Source: Puia dinghuensis
GTDB lineage: Bacteria; Bacteroidota; Bacteroidia; Chitinophagales; Chitinophagaceae
Direction of reading: 5' to 3'
Assembly (NCBI GenBank): GCA_026225275.1
Contig: JAMFSL010000004.1
Location: 1-36,195, forward strand
Length of the DNA: 36,195 bases
Shown piece by piece: positions 2,801-36,120 of this stretch. Numbering within the stretch: position 1 is the first letter of the stretch; each line of letters begins with the position of its first letter. The notes beneath the pieces are model-generated. The model searched no databases, was not told the origin of the DNA, and saw nothing but the letters and a program-made list of their open reading frames with translations. Made by a program: the position numbers and the translations under genes.

Positions 2801-3589
2801 ATGAATAAAAAATTCTTTTTTCTGCTTCTCTTTGGCTTTATTGCCAGCATAGGGCTTCGGGCACAGAAGGCACAGAAGGCCCCGGCGGCACAGAAGGTGC
2901 AGGCGGCACAAGTACGCAGGATCGACACTGTAGCGGTCGCCATCCTCGATAAGATGAGCGCAATAATCGGGGATTTGGGTTCATGCAGTGTAACGATCAA
3001 GTCCAATTACGACGTTACCAGCAAGGAATTAGGGTTGATCAAGCATACTGACGAAGAGCATCTCTTTTTGCATGGTTCGAATAAGTTGCTGGTAAAAGCC
3101 GATGGGGACCGGGGAAGCCGGGACCTGTATTATGATGGTAAAACATTAAGTTATTATTCAATGGACAGAAATCAATATGGCCAGATTGAAGCGCCGGCAT
3201 CGGTGGTGGAGATGATAGATACCGTGAGCAGGCGATATGGCATCGAATTCCCCGCGGCTGATTTCCTGTATCCAACCTTTGTGGACGATATCCTGGCCGA
3301 GTCAAAAGAGTTGGTGTACCTGGGTCTGACGACGATCGATGGCAAGGAATGTTATCATATAGCGGGTATGGGCACAGACAAGAGTTTCCAGTTCTGGATC
3401 TCCAATGACGCCTTTACGCTGCCGATGAAGATGGTCATCGTATATACCACAAAACCCATGAATCCACAATATGAGGCGGTGTTGAGCGACTGGCAGGTCA
3501 ATCCTACCCTTCCGGATGCGATGTTTGACTTTTCCATTCCGCTTAAAGCCCAGAAGGTCAAACTGGTGCCCTTAACCGCAAAAAAATAA
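2801..3589 (+). CDS. Secreted DUF2092-like protein
   Basis: A 262-residue protein with a Sec signal peptide (NKKFFF, hydrophobic core, probable cut after LRA near residue 21). A short QKAQKAPAAQKVQAAQ stretch built from repeated CAGAAGG-type DNA follows, then a domain resembling DUF2092, a predicted periplasmic family with a LolA-like fold. Typical pieces are DLYYDGKTLSYYSMDRNQYG and the closing DWQVNPTLPDAMFDFSIP. The family has no firmly known function; a lipid- or lipoprotein-binding role is only suggested by the fold. It lies 23 bases before the DUF6515-like gene and probably shares its transcript. Confidence 0.8.
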   Translation: MNKKFFFLLLFGFIASIGLRAQKAQKAPAAQKVQAAQVRRIDTVAVAILDKMSAIIGDLGSCSVTIKSNYDVTSKELGLIKHTDEEHLFLHGSNKLLVKADGDRGSRDLYYDGKTLSYYSMDRNQYGQIEAPASVVEMIDTVSRRYGIEFPAADFLYPTFVDDILAESKELVYLGLTTIDGKECYHIAGMGTDKSFQFWISNDAFTLPMKMVIVYTTKPMNPQYEAVLSDWQVNPTLPDAMFDFSIPLKAQKVKLVPLTAKK

Positions 3590-3612
3590 TCATTACCATT
3601 AATCCCAGCATC

Positions 3613-4494
3613 ATGCAAAAATCTTTTATATATAAATACGGTTCTGTTATTATGGCCGCTGTATTCGGGCTGGCAATAGTCGTGTGCCCGCAATACGGAA
3701 TGGCACAACGATTCAGTCATGGTGGAGGGGGAGGGGGTGCCAGGCCTGCGCCGATGGCCCGTCCTGCTCCCGAGGCTCGTCCCGCTCCTGCGTCCCGCCC
3801 TGCCCCGGCGCCGAGGCAGGAAGCTGTCAGACCTGCTCCGGCAGTCAGACCCACTCCCGAGGCCAGGCCAGTTGAAGAGGCCAGGCCGACCATCAATGGC
3901 GGCAGCCGGAATAATGGCAATCACGATTTGAGCCGACCGGCGGATGCGCGGGCGGGTGTGGATGTTCATGCGAATATCAATGTCCGCAACAATGTCAACG
4001 TATATCATACGGGTGAGTATCGTGGGGTCCATCCTTACGCTTATCATCCTTATCGTCCTTATTATTGGGGACCGCACTGGCACCCAATGGGCTTTTTCCT
4101 GACGTCGCTGGCGGCAGATGCGATCTGGTTCAACTTCAATAATCAGCGTTATTACTATGACGACGGCTGTTATTATCTGCCCAGCAATGGTGGGTATTCG
4201 GTAGTGCCGCCGCCGGTAGGCGCTGTGGTCCCTTCCTTACCGGACGGATTTGAGACCACCATGGTAGGCAACGACACTTATTATTATTTTGGCGGAGCTT
4301 TCTATGTCCAAACCGATCAGGGTTACCAAGTTGTGCAAGGGCCGCCGGGCGCTGTGATCACGGAATTACCGACAGGGGCTGTCGACCAGCAAGTCAACGG
4401 CGAGGATATCCTTGTCTATAACAACACCTATTACCAACCGATCACCCAGGACGGGCAGGATGCCTATGAGGTGGTGCCGGGTCCGGGTCAATAG
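3613..4494 (+). CDS. Secreted DUF6515-like protein with Pro/Ala/Arg-rich N-terminal region
   Basis: This 293-residue protein carries a signal peptide (probable cut after GMA, near residue 31). Residues about 35-90 are a low-complexity stretch of ARPAP/VRPAP-type repeats. A His/Tyr-rich middle (HPYAYHPYRPYYWGPHWHP) precedes two Tyr-rich repeats of the type GGYSVVPPPVGAVVPSLP and GYQVVQGPPGAVITELP, with YYYFGGAFY between them. That repeat pattern is what I associate with DUF6515, a family of unknown function in Bacteroidota and other bacteria. It follows the DUF2092-like gene closely. No catalytic residues are evident; an envelope-associated structural or binding role is a guess. Confidence 0.78.
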   Translation: MQKSFIYKYGSVIMAAVFGLAIVVCPQYGMAQRFSHGGGGGGARPAPMARPAPEARPAPASRPAPAPRQEAVRPAPAVRPTPEARPVEEARPTINGGSRNNGNHDLSRPADARAGVDVHANINVRNNVNVYHTGEYRGVHPYAYHPYRPYYWGPHWHPMGFFLTSLAADAIWFNFNNQRYYYDDGCYYLPSNGGYSVVPPPVGAVVPSLPDGFETTMVGNDTYYYFGGAFYVQTDQGYQVVQGPPGAVITELPTGAVDQQVNGEDILVYNNTYYQPITQDGQDAYEVVPGPGQ

Positions 4495-4519: not shown

Positions 4520-5437
4520 CTAAGGCCGGATCTCCGTTAAGGTGGTCCGGCCTTCGTCTATCTTCAGGTCATACTTCACGCTTGTCTTAAGGGCAACGTT
4601 TGCTGCGGCGTGGCCTACAGGGAAGCCGAAACAGACGGGATAATTATATTCTTTTATACAATCGAGGATGATCTCTTCGACAGTAGCGCCGAAAGGGCGG
4701 GTAGTATCCTTCAGGTCCGTAAAGCTACCGACGATCAGACCGGCCAGGCGGTCGAGCCTGCCGCTGCGTTTGAGCTGGCGCAGCATCCGGTCGATATTAT
4801 ACAGGTATTCGCCGATATCTTCCAGGAAAAGGATTTTGCCTTCCGTCGTTACGGCAGAAGAGCTGCCGGCGAGGTGGGCGATCAATGCCAGGTTGCCGCC
4901 GGTGAGAGGCGCAGTGGCCTGCCCTACCCTATTGAACAGATGGGAAGAACAGGAGTAGGCGGTTTTCTCTCCTGTCAGCGCCTGACGCAGGGACTGCACA
5001 TACGAGTCTTCTGCTCCGCCATCATTGAAGGCTCCGGCCATCGGAGCGTGCAAGGTCGCGATGTTGAAGTTAGCTTCGATATGAGCGTGAAGGACAGTGA
5101 TGTCGCTGTAGCCGATGATCCATTTGGGCGACTGTCGGAAGCGGGAGAAATCGATACGGTCGATGATGCGGCTGAGGCCATAACCGCCGCGGCCGCAGAG
5201 GATGGCTTTGACGTCCGGGTCGTCGAGCGCTGCTTGAAAATCGGCCAGGCGGGCTTCGTCGTCCCCGGAGAAATAGTTGTCGGAAGCGCCGCCGAGAGTA
5301 AGGCCGACTCTGACATGGTATCCCCACTGCTGCAAGGTGTCGATGCAGGTCTGTGCTTTTTCGCGGGGCATGTAGCCGGCGGGGCAGACGATGGCGATCG
5401 TATCGCCGGGATGCAAGGATGGGGGAATATGAGTCAT
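4520..5437 (-). CDS. S66 family LD-carboxypeptidase, cytoplasmic form
   Basis: A peptidase of the S66 (LdcA/MccF) family, which cuts the L-D bond of tetrapeptides during peptidoglycan recycling or related amide bonds. From the ATG at 5437 the protein has 305 residues; the frame could also open at GTG 5452, but MTHIPPSLHPGDTIAIVCPA is the usual start of the family. The catalytic triad is present: Ser111 in GYSDIT, Glu206 in FLEDIGEY and His276 in FPVGHAAANVAL. No signal peptide, hence probably cytoplasmic. It starts 17 bases after the stop of the ATPase gene and is a diverged paralogue of the S66 gene at 7076-8134. Confidence 0.9.
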   Translation of the reverse strand: MTHIPPSLHPGDTIAIVCPAGYMPREKAQTCIDTLQQWGYHVRVGLTLGGASDNYFSGDDEARLADFQAALDDPDVKAILCGRGGYGLSRIIDRIDFSRFRQSPKWIIGYSDITVLHAHIEANFNIATLHAPMAGAFNDGGAEDSYVQSLRQALTGEKTAYSCSSHLFNRVGQATAPLTGGNLALIAHLAGSSSAVTTEGKILFLEDIGEYLYNIDRMLRQLKRSGRLDRLAGLIVGSFTDLKDTTRPFGATVEEIILDCIKEYNYPVCFGFPVGHAAANVALKTSVKYDLKIDEGRTTLTEIRP

Positions 5438-5454
5438 ATATTGAAGATACACAC

Positions 5455-7075: not shown

Positions 7076-8134
7076 TTATATTTCCGCCAGGGTAACCTGA
7101 TCGGGGTGAACGGTGAGGGTGTGAGGTATACCGTATTTGAAGGCATAGTTTTCCGGCTGGTGGCCGACGGGAAAATTAAAGCAGACGGGGTAACTGTAGG
7201 GTTTCACCCTGTCCGTTACGATATCATAGACCGTGCGCCCGAAGTCATCGCCGGGATCATCTGGTTTGACTTTGAATCCGCCGATGATGAGACCGGCCAG
7301 CCGGTCGAGCTTTCCGGTACGCTGAAGGTGCCAGAACATGCGATCGATGCTGTACAGATATTCGCCGGTGTCTTCCACGAACAGGATCTTTCCGGCCGTA
7401 TCGATATCGGAAATGGTGCCGGCGAGGCTTTCGATCGTCTTGAGGTTGCCGCCGATCAGCTGACCTTCGGCCGATCCGGCCCGGTTAAGGTCGTATGGCG
7501 GGGTAGTATATTGCATTTTCTTATCTCCGCTAAGCGCCTGACGAAGGGAAAGGATAGAGGCCACCTGAACGGGTTCTGCCTTTGACCAGTCATCCGGAAA
7601 GCTGTTGCACATTTTGGAATGAATGGATGCGATGTGCAGATTGGTATGAATATGGCAAAGGAGGACGGTGATATCGCTGAAGCCGATGATCCATTTAGGA
7701 TGTTGCAGCAGGGAAGAAAAATTCAATCCGTCGACAATATGAACGGCGCCATAGCCGCCGCGAGCGCAGAGGATAGCGTTGACAGCGGGATCGTCGAGCA
7801 TTTGCTGGAAGTCGGCGAGTCTTTCGGCATCGGTGCCGCCGAAGGTGAAGTCTTTTTTTCCGACAGTGTCGCCGACCTTGATATGGAAACCCCAGCTTTC
7901 TATCTGCTGGATTGCGGGCTGGATCTCTTTCGGGGTGATGTTTCCGGCGGGACAGGTGATGCCGATCGTATCGCCGGGCCGAAGGTAGGGAGGGATCAGG
8001 AGGATGGAGGAGGGTGCCGAATCCCGGCGGATTTCGCCTGATTGGGAAGCGGCAGTCTGGCGTGTTTGGCTGGTTGCCCATGCAGACTCCATCGCGCCAA
8101 TACTTAGTAAGGAAAGAAAGTTTTTTCGATTCAT
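7076..8134 (-). CDS. S66 family LD-carboxypeptidase, probably exported form
   Basis: A 352-residue S66 peptidase with an N-terminal extension of about 45 residues compared with its neighbour. It opens with NRKNFLSLLSIGAMESAWA, which resembles an export signal (Tat-like but with RK in place of RR and a weak hydrophobic core), then a Ser/Gln-rich linker before IPPYLRPGDTIGITCPAG. Catalytic residues are Ser153 in GFSDIT, Glu254 in FVEDTGEY and His325 in FPVGHQPEN. The expected reaction is LD-carboxypeptidase cleavage of peptidoglycan peptides. By eye it shares well under two thirds of residues with the S66 gene at 4520-5437, so the duplication is old. Export is inferred and uncertain. Confidence 0.88.
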   Translation of the reverse strand: MNRKNFLSLLSIGAMESAWATSQTRQTAASQSGEIRRDSAPSSILLIPPYLRPGDTIGITCPAGNITPKEIQPAIQQIESWGFHIKVGDTVGKKDFTFGGTDAERLADFQQMLDDPAVNAILCARGGYGAVHIVDGLNFSSLLQHPKWIIGFSDITVLLCHIHTNLHIASIHSKMCNSFPDDWSKAEPVQVASILSLRQALSGDKKMQYTTPPYDLNRAGSAEGQLIGGNLKTIESLAGTISDIDTAGKILFVEDTGEYLYSIDRMFWHLQRTGKLDRLAGLIIGGFKVKPDDPGDDFGRTVYDIVTDRVKPYSYPVCFNFPVGHQPENYAFKYGIPHTLTVHPDQVTLAEI

Positions 8135-25927: not shown

Positions 25928-27280
25928 TTACTTCAGCAACTGCCGGATCGGTTGTATCAGCGTATCGATATCTCCCGCTCCGGCTGTGATCAATAACTTC
26001 AAATCGTCTTTCGCCACTTTATCTTTTATGATCGTCAAGATCTCCTGTTTGTCGACTACTATGGCCTTGCCCGGTGTCATCCTTTCTGCGATCAGCTGGC
26101 TCGTCACTCCTTCGATGGGCAATTCCCGGGCCGGGTAGATCGGCAGCAGGAATACTTCATCTGCGAGGTCCAGGCTTGTCGCGAATCCATCCACAAAGTC
26201 GCGTGTCCTGCTGAACAGGTGCGGCTGGAAGATGATCGTACATTTCATACCGCCGAACAGCTCCTTTGCCCCGCTGATCAGCGCCCTCAGTTCTTCCGGG
26301 TGGTGAGCATAATCATCGATAAAGACCCTGCGGGGTTCTTTGACGATATACTCGAAGCGTCTTTTGACGCCCCGGAAGGCTGCGACAGCCGGTATTATCG
26401 CATCACCGGCGATACCGAGGCGATGAGCTACGGCGATGGCTGCGGTGGCATTCTCTACGTTGTGGCGGCCGCCCATGGTGAGGACAACATTTTTCAGCTG
26501 CCAATCGCCCGTCTGCACGTTGAACAGGTAGTCGCCCTGGTCGATGGTGATATCCGAGGCAAAAAAGTCAGCGCCGTCGACTAAGCCATAAGTCCATTGC
26601 GGGTCACCTTTCAGGTCCAGCCCTTTTTTGTTCAGCAAAAGTCCGCCGGGTTTAAGCCGGCCGGAGAACTGGACAAAAGCCTCGTGCACTGCTTCAGCCG
26701 TCCCATAGATATCGAGATGATCGGCATCCATGGCCGTGACGACGGCGATGTCGGGGCTAAGTTTCAGAAAGCTCCGGTCGTACTCGTCTGCTTCCACCAC
26801 ACATACATTTCGCGGGTCGCTCCAGAAATTGCTGTTATAGTTAACAGAAATTCCTCCCAGGAAGGCATTACAGCCGTAGCCGGTATGCCGAAGGATGTGA
26901 GCGATCATGGTCGAGATGGTGGTCTTGCCATGCGTGCCTGCCACGCAAATATTAAAAGAGCTACTGGTGATCATGCCCAGGACGTCGCTGCGCTTCAACA
27001 GCGGGTAGCCGTGTTCTTTATAATACAGCCATTCCCGATGATCTTTTGGTACGGCCGGGGTGTAGACGACGAGGTCTGCATCCTTCGGCGCCGCTGCCGG
27101 ATCGTCTTCATAGTGAACGGGTATTCCTTCGTTTTCCAACTGCCTGGTCAGGGTTGTAGCTGTTCGATCGTAACCACTGACCGCTTTGCCGTGGAAGTGG
27201 AAGTACCTTGCCAGTGCGCTCATCCCGATACCGCCAATACCGATGAAATAGATCCTTTTTATATCTTTTAGTTCAACCAT
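25928..27280 (-). CDS. murC: UDP-N-acetylmuramate--L-alanine ligase MurC
   Basis: A 450-residue cytoplasmic ligase that adds L-alanine to UDP-MurNAc with ATP, the first step of stem-peptide assembly. N-terminal Rossmann motif GIGGIGMSALA (14-24), ATP-binding GTHGKTT (115-121), and the central EADEYDRSFL and DADHLDIYG segments are those of MurC; DDYAHHPEELRA marks the C-terminal domain. The start is ATG 27280, giving the standard VELKDIKRIYFIGIGGIG opening; the frame runs further upstream only inside murG. Its first eight bases overlap the end of murG, which suggests translational coupling. An unassigned gap of 100 bases separates it from ftsQ. Confidence 0.96.
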   Translation of the reverse strand: MVELKDIKRIYFIGIGGIGMSALARYFHFHGKAVSGYDRTATTLTRQLENEGIPVHYEDDPAAAPKDADLVVYTPAVPKDHREWLYYKEHGYPLLKRSDVLGMITSSSFNICVAGTHGKTTISTMIAHILRHTGYGCNAFLGGISVNYNSNFWSDPRNVCVVEADEYDRSFLKLSPDIAVVTAMDADHLDIYGTAEAVHEAFVQFSGRLKPGGLLLNKKGLDLKGDPQWTYGLVDGADFFASDITIDQGDYLFNVQTGDWQLKNVVLTMGGRHNVENATAAIAVAHRLGIAGDAIIPAVAAFRGVKRRFEYIVKEPRRVFIDDYAHHPEELRALISGAKELFGGMKCTIIFQPHLFSRTRDFVDGFATSLDLADEVFLLPIYPARELPIEGVTSQLIAERMTPGKAIVVDKQEILTIIKDKVAKDDLKLLITAGAGDIDTLIQPIRQLLK

Positions 27281-28442
27281 TATTATTATTATTTCGGGTG
27301 TCCGGGGCGATACCGCCTTTCGGGCCGATCGCCTCCAGGATCTCATTCGCGATCCGGTCAGCCGCATCCCTGACGGCCAATTTGCCGATATTCTCTTTCA
27401 ACTGTTGCTGCAGGGCCTTATCGTGTACCAGGCCGATCGTGGTCGCGACAAGCTTGTCTTTGGCTTCGCTGTCTTTGACCATGAGGGCAGCTTTCTTCTC
27501 CACCAGGTGTTGTGCGTTGACCGTCTGATGATCTTCCGCCGCGAAGGGAAAAGGCACGAAGACCACGGGTTTAGCCACCACGCACAATTCGGCGATCGAC
27601 ATGGCGCCGGATCTGGATATCACCACATCTGCCGCGGCGAAGGCATATTCCATCTGAGGGATGAAATCATTCGTCCAGATGCCGGGGCCTGCGAGCTTTC
27701 CGGCCGCTCCCATGGCGTGAGCGGCAACCAGGGCGGTGGCTTCTGCAGCGAAGGGCTTGCCTGTCTGCCAGATCAATTGGATATCATGCTTGCCGAATTC
27801 ATCGAGGTGAGCGGCGATCGCCAGGTTAATGCCTTTGGCACCAAGGCTGCCGCCTGTCGACAAGACGACTGATCCGGACGGGTCCAGGCCGAAATGACGA
27901 ATGGCTTCTTCCCTGGATACATTGCTCTGCACAATCGACTGTCGAACGGGATTACCGGTAATCACGATGCGGCCGGCGGGAAAGAATTTCTCCATGCCGT
28001 CACTGGCGACGAAGATGCGGGTGGCCTTCTTTCCCAATAAGATATTGCTCTTCCCTGCGAAAGAATTGCTCTCATGGATAAATGTAGGGATGCCCCGGGC
28101 CTGAGCGGCACGCAAGACCGGAAAACTGGAATATCCCCCTACTCCTATCACCGCCTCGGGGCGGAAGTCGCGCAAGATACGGCCGACCTGGAAAAAGCTT
28201 TTGATGAGCTTAAAAGGCAAGCCTATATTTTTTATCAAAGAGCTTCTGTTGAAGCCGGCGATGTCGATGCCTTCGATCCGGTAGCCGGCCTGAGGGATCT
28301 TCTCCATTTCCATTTTGCCTTTTGCCCCGACAAACAGCAGTTCAATGGAGGAATCGATCTTTTGCAATGCCCCTGCTATGGCGATGGCGGGGAAGATATG
28401 TCCGCCGGTGCCGCCGCCTGCTATGATGATACGTCTGCTCAT
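27273..28442 (-). CDS. murG: UDP-GlcNAc transferase MurG (lipid II synthesis)
   Basis: A 389-residue peripheral membrane glycosyltransferase that adds GlcNAc to lipid I to make lipid II. Motifs: GGGTGGHIFPAIAIA near 8-22, HESNSFAGKSN for the acceptor side, GGSLGAKGIN and the donor-binding SRSGAMSIAELC with PFPFAAEDHQTVNA. Its ATG overlaps the ftsW TGA by four bases (ATGA). The C-terminus ends in five consecutive Asn codons and Gly, encoded by an (ATT)n-type microsatellite on the plus strand at 27281-27294, and overlaps the murC start by eight bases. Confidence 0.96.
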   Translation of the reverse strand: MSRRIIIAGGGTGGHIFPAIAIAGALQKIDSSIELLFVGAKGKMEMEKIPQAGYRIEGIDIAGFNRSSLIKNIGLPFKLIKSFFQVGRILRDFRPEAVIGVGGYSSFPVLRAAQARGIPTFIHESNSFAGKSNILLGKKATRIFVASDGMEKFFPAGRIVITGNPVRQSIVQSNVSREEAIRHFGLDPSGSVVLSTGGSLGAKGINLAIAAHLDEFGKHDIQLIWQTGKPFAAEATALVAAHAMGAAGKLAGPGIWTNDFIPQMEYAFAAADVVISRSGAMSIAELCVVAKPVVFVPFPFAAEDHQTVNAQHLVEKKAALMVKDSEAKDKLVATTIGLVHDKALQQQLKENIGKLAVRDAADRIANEILEAIGPKGGIAPDTRNNNNNG

Positions 28443-29413
28443 GCCGGTGAGCCCTCCGACTGCTCTGCATTGCGTGCTACGCTGAGGATGATGCCAATGG
28501 CCAGACAGGTGAACAGGAAGGAGCTGCCTCCCATGCTGACCAGGGGCAGCGTGACGCCGGTGACGGGAAATAAGTTGACATTGACCGCCATATTAGCAAG
28601 TGCCTGTATCACCAGGGTGAAGCTGAGTCCCAATGCGAGGAAGGCTCCGAATGCAAAGGGGCATCGCCGGAAAATGCGAATGCTGCGCAGCAGGAATACC
28701 AGGTAGATCACGACGATAAAAATGCCACCTATGAGGCCATATTCTTCGATGATGATAGCATAGATGAAATCGGAATACGGGTGTGGAAGAAAATTCCGTT
28801 GCTGGCTGTTGCCGGGTCCCAGCCCGAAGAAGCCGCCCCTGGCGATGGCGATCTTGGCCTGGTTCGTCTGATAGTTGTTGTCGTCGTTGTCTTCTTTGCC
28901 GCCATACATAAAGGTCTCTACGCGGCTGATCCAGGTATCGACGCGGACGAAGAGGCGGGACCGGCCTTCCGTTTTTGGTTTTTCTACTGTTTCCCCATTG
29001 CTTTTGTGACGGAGGACTGCGGCGCCGATGAGGATCATCACGGGTATGGCGGCGACGAGGATCGTCAGTATCAGGTGTTTGGCGCTGACCCTGCCGATGA
29101 ACAGCAGTAGTAAACTGGTAGCGCCGACCAGCAGGGCGGTGGACAGATTGGCCGGTGCAATTAAGAGACAGACAATGGCGACCGGGGTAATGACGGGCAG
29201 AAAGCCGGTGCGGAAATCCTTGATCGTGTCCTGTTTTTTACTGAGCAGTCTGCTGAGATACATGAACAGCGCCAGTTTGGCCAGATCCGAGGTCTGGAAT
29301 GTCATATTGATGATCGGCAGCCGTATCCAACGGCTGCCTTCATTGAGCTTGACCCCGAAAAAGAGCGTATAGAGCAATAGAGGAATAGATATCAGGAAGA
29401 TGATCATGGCCAC
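28439..29413 (-). CDS. ftsW: FtsW, C-terminal fragment (TM3 onward) after an in-frame TAG
   Basis: This 324-residue fragment (GTG 29413 or ATG 29407) contains most of FtsW, the SEDS glycosyltransferase that polymerises septal peptidoglycan from lipid II. It holds about eight membrane helices. Conserved SEDS parts are FQTSDLAKLALFMYL, the essential acidic residue in HPYSDFIYAI (Asp215 of the fragment), and TGVTLPLVSMGGSSFL near the end. The preceding 84 codons lie in the same frame and are cut off by a TAG at 29422-29420. Joined, the two pieces make a normal FtsW of about 411 residues. Re-initiation six bases after the stop could produce this piece as a separate protein. Its TGA overlaps the murG start. 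Confidence 0.85.
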   Translation of the reverse strand: MAMIIFLISIPLLLYTLFFGVKLNEGSRWIRLPIINMTFQTSDLAKLALFMYLSRLLSKKQDTIKDFRTGFLPVITPVAIVCLLIAPANLSTALLVGATSLLLLFIGRVSAKHLILTILVAAIPVMILIGAAVLRHKSNGETVEKPKTEGRSRLFVRVDTWISRVETFMYGGKEDNDDNNYQTNQAKIAIARGGFFGLGPGNSQQRNFLPHPYSDFIYAIIIEEYGLIGGIFIVVIYLVFLLRSIRIFRRCPFAFGAFLALGLSFTLVIQALANMAVNVNLFPVTGVTLPLVSMGGSSFLFTCLAIGIILSVARNAEQSEGSPA

Positions 29414-29419
29414 CCGGGA

Positions 29420-29422
29420 CTA
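29420..29422 (-). other. In-frame amber codon (TAG) splitting ftsW
   Basis: On the minus strand the frame reads ATC-TAG-TCC-CGG-GTG-GCC-ATG. There is no shift: codons on both sides belong to the same FtsW alignment. In related proteins I would expect an aromatic residue such as Tyr here, one base away from TAG. TAG serves as a normal stop for other genes in the window (for example the ABC permease and the S66 gene at 4520), so the codon is not generally reassigned. Confidence 0.9.
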
Positions 29423-29674
29423 GATCGTATAGTTGACCTGGTGGGCGAAATAAATGATCATAACGCCGATCAGGATGAAAGCGAATTGTTTGAACAGGTA
29501 TATTTCGGTGTTGCCTTTGGCCATTTTATAAGCAAGCAGGCCTGTGGAACTGTAGACAACCAATAACGATACCACAGCCAGCAGGAATACTGCTGTCCAG
29601 ATGACCTTGTCACCTTTGGTCCGGGACCGGAGGCTGGCGAAGGGCGTTCTTTCTATCGTTGTGGTATTGCTCAC
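29420..29674 (-). CDS. ftsW: FtsW, N-terminal fragment (TM1-TM2) ending at an in-frame TAG
   Basis: An 84-residue piece that starts with GTG at 29674, the only start after an in-frame TAA. Its charged N-terminus (SLRSRTKGDKVIW) and two membrane helices (about 24-46 with LLAVVSLLVVYSSTGLLAY, and 60-78 with FAFILIGVMIIYFA) are the normal beginning of Bacteroidota FtsW. It ends HQVNYTI-stop; the frame then continues directly as SRVAMIIFLISIPLLLY in the next fragment. It lies 15 bases after the murD stop. Alone it lacks all catalytic residues. Confidence 0.8.
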   Translation of the reverse strand: MSNTTTIERTPFASLRSRTKGDKVIWTAVFLLAVVSLLVVYSSTGLLAYKMAKGNTEIYLFKQFAFILIGVMIIYFAHQVNYTI

Positions 29675-29689
29675 TTATCTCTTACTGCT

Positions 29690-31030
29690 TTACAGGTCTC
29701 TTACTGCCTCTTTAAATTGTTTGCCTCTGTCTTCGTAATTTCTGAACAGGTCGAAGCTGGCGCAGGCCGGGCTCAGCAGTACCGTATCCCCTTTCGTGGC
29801 AAAATGGAAGGCGGCTTTGACTGCTTCTTCAGCGCTGCCGGTGTTGACCATTAGCGGTACATCGTTCTGAAAGGCTTCGTGAATCTTCCTGTTGTCCAAT
29901 CCCAGGCAGACGATAGCCTTAACCTTTTCCTTTACCAGGTCACGGATCAGGGAGTAGTCGTTACCCTTGTCAACCCCACCCAGGATTAGGATCGTGGGAT
30001 GTTCCATGCTTTCCAGCGCATACCAGGTGCTATTGACATTGGTAGCCTTCGAATCGTTGACAAATTCGACACCGCGGACCGTGCTGACGTATTCCATCCG
30101 ATGTTCCAAGGCTTCGAAGCTCCGGATGGCCTCCCTGATCTTTTCCTTACGGATGCCAACGGTGGCGGATGCGATACCTGCTGCCATAGTGTTATATTGA
30201 TTGTGAATGCCTTTGAGGGCAAAATCATAGATGCTCATCTGCAATTTCTCGCTGCCAGTATTAACAGTCATCTGTCCGTTCCTGATCGATCCGCCTTTGT
30301 TGGTTTCCTGTTGCATAGTAAATGGTAATGGGTTAGAATGAAAGGGAAATTGGTCTATATATTTTTTTATCACGGGGTCGTCCTGGCAATAAATAAAATA
30401 GTCTTCTTTTGTCTGGTTCATTACAATCCGGAATTTGCTGCGGATGTAATTTTCAAATTTGTATTCATAGCGATCCAGGTGGTCTTCGGTGATATTGGTA
30501 AGGATAGCCACATCGGGTCGGAAGGAGACGATGTCATCCAGCTGGAAGCTGCTGATCTCGGCCACATACCATTTCTTCGGATCTTCTGCGACCTGCCGGG
30601 CGAAGGAATAGCCGATATTCCCGACGAGAGCGCAGTCCAGGCCACCATGGCGGCAGATATGGTACGTCATGGCGGTAGTCGTGGTCTTGCCGTTGCTGCC
30701 GGTGATGCCGATGATCTTGCTATCGCCTTTATAACGATAAGCGAGTTCGATCTCACTGATGACTGGTATGCCTTTCTTCCTTATTTCCTTTACCAGCTCA
30801 TTCTTTTCGGGAATGCCGGGGCTTTTCATGATTTCGTCGGCAGCCAGGATACGGGAGGTGGTATGTCTGCCTTCTTCGAATTCGATGCCGTGGGTACTGA
30901 GGGTGTGACGGTATTCGTCTTTCAACGGCCCACCATCGGACACGAAGACATCATAGCCGCGCTCAGCCGCTAATATAGCCGCGCCTACACCGCTTTCACC
31001 ACCACCGAGTATGACCATTCGCTGTTTCAT
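29690..31030 (-). CDS. murD: UDP-N-acetylmuramoyl-L-alanine--D-glutamate ligase MurD
   Basis: A 446-residue cytoplasmic ligase that adds D-glutamate to UDP-MurNAc-L-Ala with ATP. The N-terminal domain opens KQRMVILGGGESGVGAAILA, ATP is bound by GSNGKTT (111-117), and ISSFQLDD plus NITEDHLDRYEY follow in the central domain; FVNDSKATNVNSTWYAL and ILGGVDKGNDYS mark the C-terminal domain. The start is placed at ATG 31030 because the only earlier candidate is a GTG at 31048. It is preceded by the largest spacer of the cluster (31031-31209) and followed 15 bases later by ftsW. Confidence 0.96.
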   Translation of the reverse strand: MKQRMVILGGGESGVGAAILAAERGYDVFVSDGGPLKDEYRHTLSTHGIEFEEGRHTTSRILAADEIMKSPGIPEKNELVKEIRKKGIPVISEIELAYRYKGDSKIIGITGSNGKTTTTAMTYHICRHGGLDCALVGNIGYSFARQVAEDPKKWYVAEISSFQLDDIVSFRPDVAILTNITEDHLDRYEYKFENYIRSKFRIVMNQTKEDYFIYCQDDPVIKKYIDQFPFHSNPLPFTMQQETNKGGSIRNGQMTVNTGSEKLQMSIYDFALKGIHNQYNTMAAGIASATVGIRKEKIREAIRSFEALEHRMEYVSTVRGVEFVNDSKATNVNSTWYALESMEHPTILILGGVDKGNDYSLIRDLVKEKVKAIVCLGLDNRKIHEAFQNDVPLMVNTGSAEEAVKAAFHFATKGDTVLLSPACASFDLFRNYEDRGKQFKEAVRDL

Positions 31031-31209
31031 GTCATCCTTTAATTTCACTTATTTCACAGGGTCGCGATCGTACATCCGATATGACGGATTAGGGGGGTTC
31101 TTCAGAAGTATGGATTTACTGCACCACAATTTCTTTTTCGTCAGGGCGAGCCCGGGGTTCACCTGGGTTCAGAGCTGCTGTCAGCCGATTTGGTTTTTCA
31201 TATACCTAT
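31031..31209. other. 179-base spacer between mraY and murD
   Basis: The longest gap inside the dcw cluster. It holds a short inverted repeat (ATCCG at about 31075, CGGAT at about 31086), a six-G run, and a GC-rich patch with two copies of GGTTCA. On the minus strand TACTTCTG is one base off the -7 box but its nearest TTG is only 16 bases away. No gene is supported on either strand; an internal promoter for murD onward is possible but unproven. Confidence 0.4.
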
Positions 31210-34008: not shown

Positions 34009-36120
34009 TCAATCGAGTTGAATCAATATTGTTTCGTTCCTTTTATACGCCGAACCCGGTTGGAGGCTTTGCGCTTTTACTCTTCCGCTGCCCCGGACCG
34101 CCACTTTCAGGTCCATGCCTTCCAGCAGATAGAGCGCATCCTTTAGTCCCATTCCCTTCACATCGGGTATTGCCTGCCGGGAGACCGCTTCCCTGTTGAG
34201 GACGGGACGGCTCCCTTCATTCGAGGCATAGAGGCGGCCCCATTCGTTCTTTGCCGCTGAATCGGTGTAGGCCAGATCGAAGGTCTGCTGCACCTGCCGG
34301 ATGTCGCGGGTGTAGCCGGCGTAATAATACCGGGAGCTGTCCCTGGTGAGGACGGGGGGTTGGGACAGGTCCGGATCTACGCTCATCAGTTTATCTGCCA
34401 GCTCTTTGAATACGGGTCCGGCGACTTTGGCCCCGAGGAACACTTTGGCAAAGGGGTGATTTTTGATCACGACGATGCAGGTATATTTCGGATGATCGGC
34501 GGGAAAATAGCCAACAAATGAGGATTGATAAATATGGTCTGCATAGCCGCGGGTGCCATTGGCGACGAGGGCAGTACCTGTTTTGCCGGCTACCTGGTAA
34601 AAGCTATTCTGGAAGAGCTTATGGGCGGTCCCTTCCGGGTCGTTGCAAACGCCAACGAGGCATTCTTTCAGTTGCCGGAGCGTTGACTCGCTGCAAATGT
34701 TGTCGATGAGGGCAACGGGCTGATTTTCTTTCACTGTGATGCCCGATTCCTGGATGGCGTCCACCAGGAAGGGCTTCATCATTCTGCCGTTATTGGCCAC
34801 GGCATTGTATAAGGTAAGGGTTTGCAGCGGAGAGATAAGGATCGAGTATCCGAAGGCCATCCATGGGATCGCCGTTGCGCTCCACGAGCGGGATCCGGGG
34901 TGCAGCACGACGGGGATGGCTTCACCCATAAGGTCGATGCCCGTAGGCTGGTCCAGCCGTAATTTCTTCAGGTGAGCAATGAACCCGTTGGGATTGTTCT
35001 CGTAGTGGCTGTAGGCGAGTTTGGCCATACCGACATTAGAGCTGAGCTCGAAAGCTTCTTTGACTGTAAAGTCTTTGTTATCGTGAGGTTCGGAGTCATA
35101 GACCGTCCGGCCCGCTACTTTCCAGGAGCCGCCTTCCAGGTTGATCCTATCCGTCAGGGCTATCTTTTTATCTTCCAGCAGGGACAGCATTGTAGCCAGT
35201 TTGAAGGTCGATCCGGGTTCTGTGGCACGGATCGAATAGTTGAGGTCTTCCCAGTAGGAGCTATCCGGTTGGTGGCCCAGGTTGGCGATAGCTTTGATCT
35301 TGCCTGTAGCCACTTCCATGACAATACAGGTGCCATGTTCGGCTTTGTTGGCGATCATTTCTTTGAGCAGGGCGTTCTCGGCGATGTCCTGAATATTGAC
35401 ATCCAGCGTAGTAATGATATCCTTGCCATTCTGCGATTCAATCTCATATCCTTCGACTGGCACATAGGTGCCGCCGGCTATATAACGAACTAGCCGGCGG
35501 CCGGATTCACCTTTCAGGAGGGTATCGTAGGTACGTTCCAGACCAACATTCTGCGCATTCGCTCTTGCTAAGCCAATGGTACGATTGGCCAGCAAGCCGA
35601 AGGGGTTCAATCTTTTATTGTTCACTTCCGCGATGAATCCGCTCTTATTACGGCCTTCGCGAACGAGCGGAAAATTCCGGAGCTGCTGATATTTTTCGAA
35701 GGAGACGTTCGACTCCAGTTCATAGTAGCGATCGACGCGGCGGTACCCCTGGAGTAGTACCTTTTTGTAGGCTGCGGCGGATTGATCGCCGAAGAGATGG
35801 GCCAGGCATATGGAAAGAGAGTCGAGGTTGTCGGTGAAGCGGCGGCCGTTCTTTTCGCGAAGTCCGTCGGCACCGAAGTCGACATAAACATTGAAATAGG
35901 GGATCGAAGTGCTAAGCATGCTGCTGTCTTCGCTGTAGATCGTTCCCCTTTCCGCGTCGAGCTCGATGAATTTCTGATGGAGGCTATCGCTGAGGCTTCT
36001 CCAGTAGGCGCCCTGTACGTGTTGGATATAGAAGACTTTACCCAGCACGATGCCGCTCAGCAAGACAATGCCGATAAAGCTAACGTAGACTCTCCATAAT
36101 ATGTCGCGCTTGACTTCCAT
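34009..36120 (-). CDS. ftsI: Septal peptidoglycan transpeptidase FtsI (class B PBP) with PASTA domain
   Basis: A 703-residue penicillin-binding protein. One N-terminal membrane helix (about 11-32) anchors it; the pedestal domain starts with LDAERGTIYSEDSSMLSTS (54-72). Transpeptidase motifs: STFK at 304-307 with the acylated Ser304, SSN at 360-362 and KTGT at 513-516. A single PASTA domain occupies about 648-703 (IPDVKGMGLKDALYLLEG onward). It crosslinks septal peptidoglycan as partner of FtsW, whose gene lies downstream. The PASTA domain makes it resemble SpoVD-type proteins, but its place in the dcw cluster supports FtsI. It lies 22 bases before murE. Confidence 0.95.
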   Translation of the reverse strand: MEVKRDILWRVYVSFIGIVLLSGIVLGKVFYIQHVQGAYWRSLSDSLHQKFIELDAERGTIYSEDSSMLSTSIPYFNVYVDFGADGLREKNGRRFTDNLDSLSICLAHLFGDQSAAAYKKVLLQGYRRVDRYYELESNVSFEKYQQLRNFPLVREGRNKSGFIAEVNNKRLNPFGLLANRTIGLARANAQNVGLERTYDTLLKGESGRRLVRYIAGGTYVPVEGYEIESQNGKDIITTLDVNIQDIAENALLKEMIANKAEHGTCIVMEVATGKIKAIANLGHQPDSSYWEDLNYSIRATEPGSTFKLATMLSLLEDKKIALTDRINLEGGSWKVAGRTVYDSEPHDNKDFTVKEAFELSSNVGMAKLAYSHYENNPNGFIAHLKKLRLDQPTGIDLMGEAIPVVLHPGSRSWSATAIPWMAFGYSILISPLQTLTLYNAVANNGRMMKPFLVDAIQESGITVKENQPVALIDNICSESTLRQLKECLVGVCNDPEGTAHKLFQNSFYQVAGKTGTALVANGTRGYADHIYQSSFVGYFPADHPKYTCIVVIKNHPFAKVFLGAKVAGPVFKELADKLMSVDPDLSQPPVLTRDSSRYYYAGYTRDIRQVQQTFDLAYTDSAAKNEWGRLYASNEGSRPVLNREAVSRQAIPDVKGMGLKDALYLLEGMDLKVAVRGSGRVKAQSLQPGSAYKRNETILIQLD

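Follow-up and report, generated by a model that had tools for sequence, protein, structure and literature searches.

Does the cell-division gene ftsW of Puia dinghuensis really carry a stop codon within its frame, or does the draft genome only make it appear so? The window analyzed here is a whole contig (C133; 36,195 bases). The draft genome to which it belongs comprises 6,589,407 bases in 365 contigs, with an estimated completeness of 99.9% and an estimated contamination of 1.22%. Translation of positions 28439–29674 on the minus strand gives 84 residues, one stop, 326 residues and a terminal stop, in agreement with the initial annotation, which had described an in-frame TAG at 29422–29420 with the frame intact on either side. 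The interrupting codon is codon 85; a GTG at 29413 is the third codon after it and an ATG at 29407 the fifth. The initial annotation had also stated that an essential gene is split. The stop is indeed present in the assembly, but that wording goes beyond what a single draft consensus can establish. The frame and its parts are as follows:

28439–29674, minus strand: whole ftsW frame, with a GTG start at 29674 and its stop at 28439, open but for the single TAG.
29420–29674, minus strand: 5' piece of ftsW, 84 codons with the first and second hydropathy peaks, up to the in-frame TAG (from translation, profile matches and hydropathy).
29420–29422, minus strand: the in-frame TAG, codon 85, a Tyr codon in all 29 same-genus loci read (from sequence and locus comparison).
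28439–29419, minus strand: 3' piece of ftsW in the same frame, 326 codons and the terminal stop, with the catalytic Asp302 and the remaining SEDS domain; the first possible restarts are GTG 29413 and ATG 29407 (from translation and profile matches).

Read through its TAG, the whole frame scores 246 bits against PF01098 (SEDS; cut-off 26.4). The second piece alone covers profile positions 67–355 (219.1 bits), while the first covers positions 3–60 and stays below the cut-off by itself (19.4 bits). TIGR02614 (ftsW) is the top NCBIfam match for both pieces, with 234.1 bits for the second and 23.7 bits for the first, each alone being below the curated cut-off of 337.5. The first piece alone has no match among solved structures up to E = 1. 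The SEDS catalytic aspartate had been placed in the second piece, and we find it there as residue 302, aligned with the corresponding Asp of solved FtsW structures (for example 8bh1 and 8p1u) and invariant across an alignment of 47 Chitinophagaceae FtsW sequences, which were taken from a set of 80 public loci. The equivalent residue of E. coli FtsW is given as D297, in a large extracellular loop, in the available text of PMC8765783. Hydropathy peaks at residues 24–42, 58–76 and 88–106 place codon 85 in the predicted loop after the second membrane helix, which bears out the position proposed for the cut. The frame is not a chance open reading frame (ORF), because the alignment with the FtsW of 29 relatives continues through the stop. 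The gene thus shares with known FtsW its position between murD and murG, the match of both pieces to ftsW models and the catalytic Asp, but differs in the TAG, which breaks what should be one continuous polypeptide, and in an Ala at codon 52 (window 29519–29521). The latter position is Tyr in 26 of 28 same-genus relatives, including the nearest, and Asn in the other two.

Comparison with relatives places the interruption in this assembly only. An ftsW-like match was found in 55 of 57 relatives; the remaining two (G005 and G048, both less than 60% complete) have a distant SEDS match only. The protein query for these searches begins after the TAG, so that its internal-stop column is blind to codon 85 and the length of the open frame is the informative quantity: ftsW is open for 411–491 residues in the 31 same-genus relatives with an ftsW frame, as against 326 residues here. 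The loci of 29 of these 31 could be read at codon 85, and every one encodes Tyr (25 TAT, 4 TAC), with TAG in none. Tyr85 is at least 90% conserved, although not invariant, in the alignment of 47 sequences. Across the family, 376 of 394 genomes, the present one included, match the ftsW query at 1e-60, and among the matches listed for the other family genomes the frames are of at least 404 residues. An in-frame TGA in one of them (G307) was considered as a further interruption of ftsW and rejected, as the alignment of its ftsW, about 409 residues long, contains no stop. The nearest relative shares 89% DNA identity over the region and, among the bases printed, is identical at the 12 before codon 85 and the 26 after it; the nearest named relative is the Chitinophagaceae metagenome-assembled genome (MAG) palsa_949. 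Judged from these sequences, the TAG differs by a single base from a conserved Tyr codon and is present in this assembly alone among the genomes examined.

Both pieces of the gene are constrained. In comparison with the nearest relative, 20 synonymous and 8 non-synonymous codon differences fall in the first piece (84 codons), and 74 and 16, respectively, in the second (326 codons). When amino-acid changes were assigned to lineages according to what most of up to 28 other relatives have, 9 fell on the present lineage (one of them being only GTG for ATG at the start), 12 on that of the nearest relative, and 2 were ambiguous; one change near the gene end falls outside the alignment. No excess of amino-acid change on this ftsW lineage was seen. 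The gene shows no signs of decay, so that the stop, if genuine, can only be very recent. General pseudogene decay and stops scattered throughout the assembly were rejected on the stop surveys described below.

We consider it probable that the TAG is a one-base consensus or sequencing error, or a base contributed by a mixture of strains, and that it is absent from dividing cells. The reasons for taking the base to be wrong are that a cell should not survive without FtsW and that MAGs contain comparable isolated stops in other essential genes. A single wrong base at the conserved Tyr codon in one of the 365 contigs would be enough to produce an apparent TAG in an otherwise normal, constrained ftsW. 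A base rate for such events was obtained from eight genes of the cluster that contains ftsW, all of them essential, in the 80 public loci, where 554 copies cover at least 80% of the query. Clean lone interior stops occur in two of these copies (about 0.4%), namely murD of locus L084 and ftsI of locus L108; both are TGA and both are in MAGs. Stops within about 30 residues of either gene end were dropped from this count (5 in murC from four loci, 5 in murD from five loci and 1 in murG), as was mraY of locus L043, whose alignment contains a frame overlap and an unknown residue. Three frame breaks were counted apart from stops (ftsA of L034 and L040, murE of L040), one of which lies at Ns. A frame break in ftsA of the nearest relative proved to be apparent only, as it falls at Ns. 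The two interrupted copies resemble the present case, each being a draft-genome gene that is full-length apart from one stop, but involve TGA and other genes rather than TAG in ftsW. Lone stops in essential genes thus do occur in such assemblies, which supports an error without proving it.

Several results weigh somewhat against this interpretation. Among the 80 public loci, none has a stop in ftsW. The assembly is otherwise clean: no stop was found in 213 matches of two large domain families across the whole genome (137 CarbopepD_reg_2 and 76 ABC_tran). A sample of 73 stretches comprising 1,114,558 bases (about 17% of the genome), scanned in a manner that does not detect frameshifts, contains 46 adjacent same-frame ORF pairs including that of ftsW. 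The other 45 were checked with Pfam (both pieces of 21 pairs, only the second piece of 24), and none resembles a nonsense-split gene, although among the latter 24 a split falling between two domains could have gone unnoticed. The second pieces in stretches L153 and L189 and the first piece in L226 have no Pfam match. No second copy of the ftsW region was found in the genome beyond 34-base matches, so that a strain mixture has no positive sign, and only three repeats of at least 250 bases are present in the sample, none of them touching the window. Such errors are therefore rare in this assembly, although one isolated stop per megabase or so would fit an ordinary or modest consensus error rate.

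The neighborhood of the gene is intact. On the minus strand, the cluster consists of a gene for an ftsI-like penicillin-binding protein (PBP), a murE-like Mur ligase gene, mraY, murD, ftsW, murG, murC, an unnamed gene, ftsA and ftsZ. The unnamed gene between murC and ftsA, in what we take to be the ftsQ position, has no NCBIfam match. The genes around ftsW, that of the ftsI-like PBP included, have full-length and uninterrupted frames; the following bear on the argument:

27273–28442, minus strand: murG, full-length NCBIfam match, downstream of ftsW and overlapping its end.
29690–31048, minus strand: murD, full-length NCBIfam match, directly upstream of ftsW.
34009–36120, minus strand: ftsI-like class B PBP with transpeptidase, PASTA and dimerization domains (from domain matches), uninterrupted and presumably the partner of FtsW.

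Elsewhere in the window, a single ORF of a relative matches both the gene at 4520–5452 (47% identity) and that at 7076–8134 (72%), and the two genes look like paralogues.

The explanation that ranks next after an error, although a good deal less probable, is that the TAG is a real and very recent nonsense allele in some or all of the sequenced cells, either a dead-end or minority variant or one tolerated through low-level misreading of TAG or a weak restart that would yield a small amount of FtsW. The cleanness of the assembly elsewhere speaks for it. The accessible part of PMC7918605 reports that bacterial genes with a single in-frame stop but otherwise under constraint are widespread, and a division-cluster FtsW-type enzyme can be dispensable for normal division in the unusual lineage of C. 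difficile, according to the portion available of PMC10693644. The TAG of ftsW resembles the stops of the former report in being single and in having frame and constraint kept on both sides, but those at the focus of the text available are orthologous, whereas the present one occurs in one assembly only and in none of the 29 relatives read. The remaining division cluster, including the ftsI-like gene, is uninterrupted and no FtsW paralogue was found in this assembly, both of which speak against such an allele. The initial annotation had listed four explanations without choosing among them; an error, or the recent real allele, is what remains of these, and the other three fare as follows.

That FtsW is made as two polypeptides appears improbable. 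In this scheme translation would stop at the TAG and restart at GTG 29413 or ATG 29407, and the two-helix piece would join the remaining catalytic helices in the membrane. Such an arrangement is suggested by the position of these codons, only the third and fifth after the stop, by the location of the cut in a loop between hydrophobic helices, as judged from hydropathy, and by the constraint on both pieces. However, the nearest relative, whose ftsW is intact, has these Val and Met codons as well, and hence they did not arise for restart. Among 351 sampled ATG starts, the start-context scores of the two codons fall at percentiles 6.6 and 1.4, and among 9787 internal ATG/GTG codons in frame they fall at 63.3 and 26.2. 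The evidence from context is only mild, because the starts of murG (0.6th percentile of the ATG starts) and murD (8.0th) score low too. The gene is unsplit in all 29 same-genus loci read and in all 80 public loci; neither a split kept in relatives nor an evolved restart site was found, and restart by itself would omit two membrane helices. A genuine split by re-initiation is therefore unsupported. The titles and abstract openings covered by our literature search contain no report of a split or nonsense FtsW.

Slightly less probable again is translation of the TAG as an amino acid, through an amber suppressor tRNA or recoding. The preserved ftsW frame on both sides of the stop speaks for it, and two weak tRNA-like matches without an anticodon are called on contig C49 in the default ARAGORN run. 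The tRNA set also looks incomplete, lacking for example Ile GAT and Ala TGC, which are missing either from the assembly or from the search. No CUA anticodon was found among the 46 assigned of 48 tRNA matches, a result to which 38 of 188 first-look candidates did not contribute as they were unscored. CUA appears on C49 only when ARAGORN is run at very permissive settings; the two runs of this kind called 50 and 21 genes within 5.5 kb, the length of the contig. RF1 is intact (486.4 bits), internal stops are absent from the 213 domain matches, and TAG terminates 155 of 687 ORFs of at least 150 codons called in the genome sample. It is therefore an ordinary stop that is not depleted, which agrees with the earlier remark that TAG serves as a normal stop elsewhere. 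No stable RNA structure was detected around or after the stop (z = 1.26; a fold at least as good in 184 of 200 shuffles). Amber suppression is disfavored by these data, although the unscored candidates and the apparently incomplete tRNA set leave room for an unassembled or unscored suppressor tRNA.

The two aberrant tRNA-like matches on C49 (L151; 103–228 and 1287–1350, one with a long insert) lie in a cluster of Lys, Asn and Phe tRNA genes. The contig also contains ORFs at 1664–2764 and 2822–4222, as well as weak Y-RNA-like (YrlA) matches below the gathering score. From its translation, we take an ORF beside the tRNA-like matches to resemble the RNA ligase RtcB, and the stretch is possibly a bacterial RNA-repair neighborhood. 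A weak TROVE-domain match at L179:1746–3329 (contig C2; E 0.00025, 20.8 bits, below the Pfam cut-off of 23) would fit Y-RNA-like RNAs.

Replacement of the lost FtsW by another SEDS protein is the least credible proposal: a profile search of the genome gave two SEDS genes, ftsW and a frame at C311:9631–10920, but the latter adjoins a transpeptidase gene, is only 30% identical to this FtsW, and is best regarded as an ordinary RodA-like gene, because a comparable second, distant SEDS match occurs in most relatives with intact ftsW (not in G016 and G018). No FtsW paralogue able to substitute was thus found, which, for this assembly, contradicts the suggested compensation by a second FtsW/RodA.

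A one-base error or strain-mixture base is thus the probable source of the TAG. The main lesson is that, when an essential gene of a draft genome contains one in-frame stop, the reads should be consulted before biological conclusions are drawn from it. A stop that was both real and tolerated would imply, surprisingly, that a polytopic glycosyltransferase on which the cell depends can function when divided in two or when present at a very low dose.
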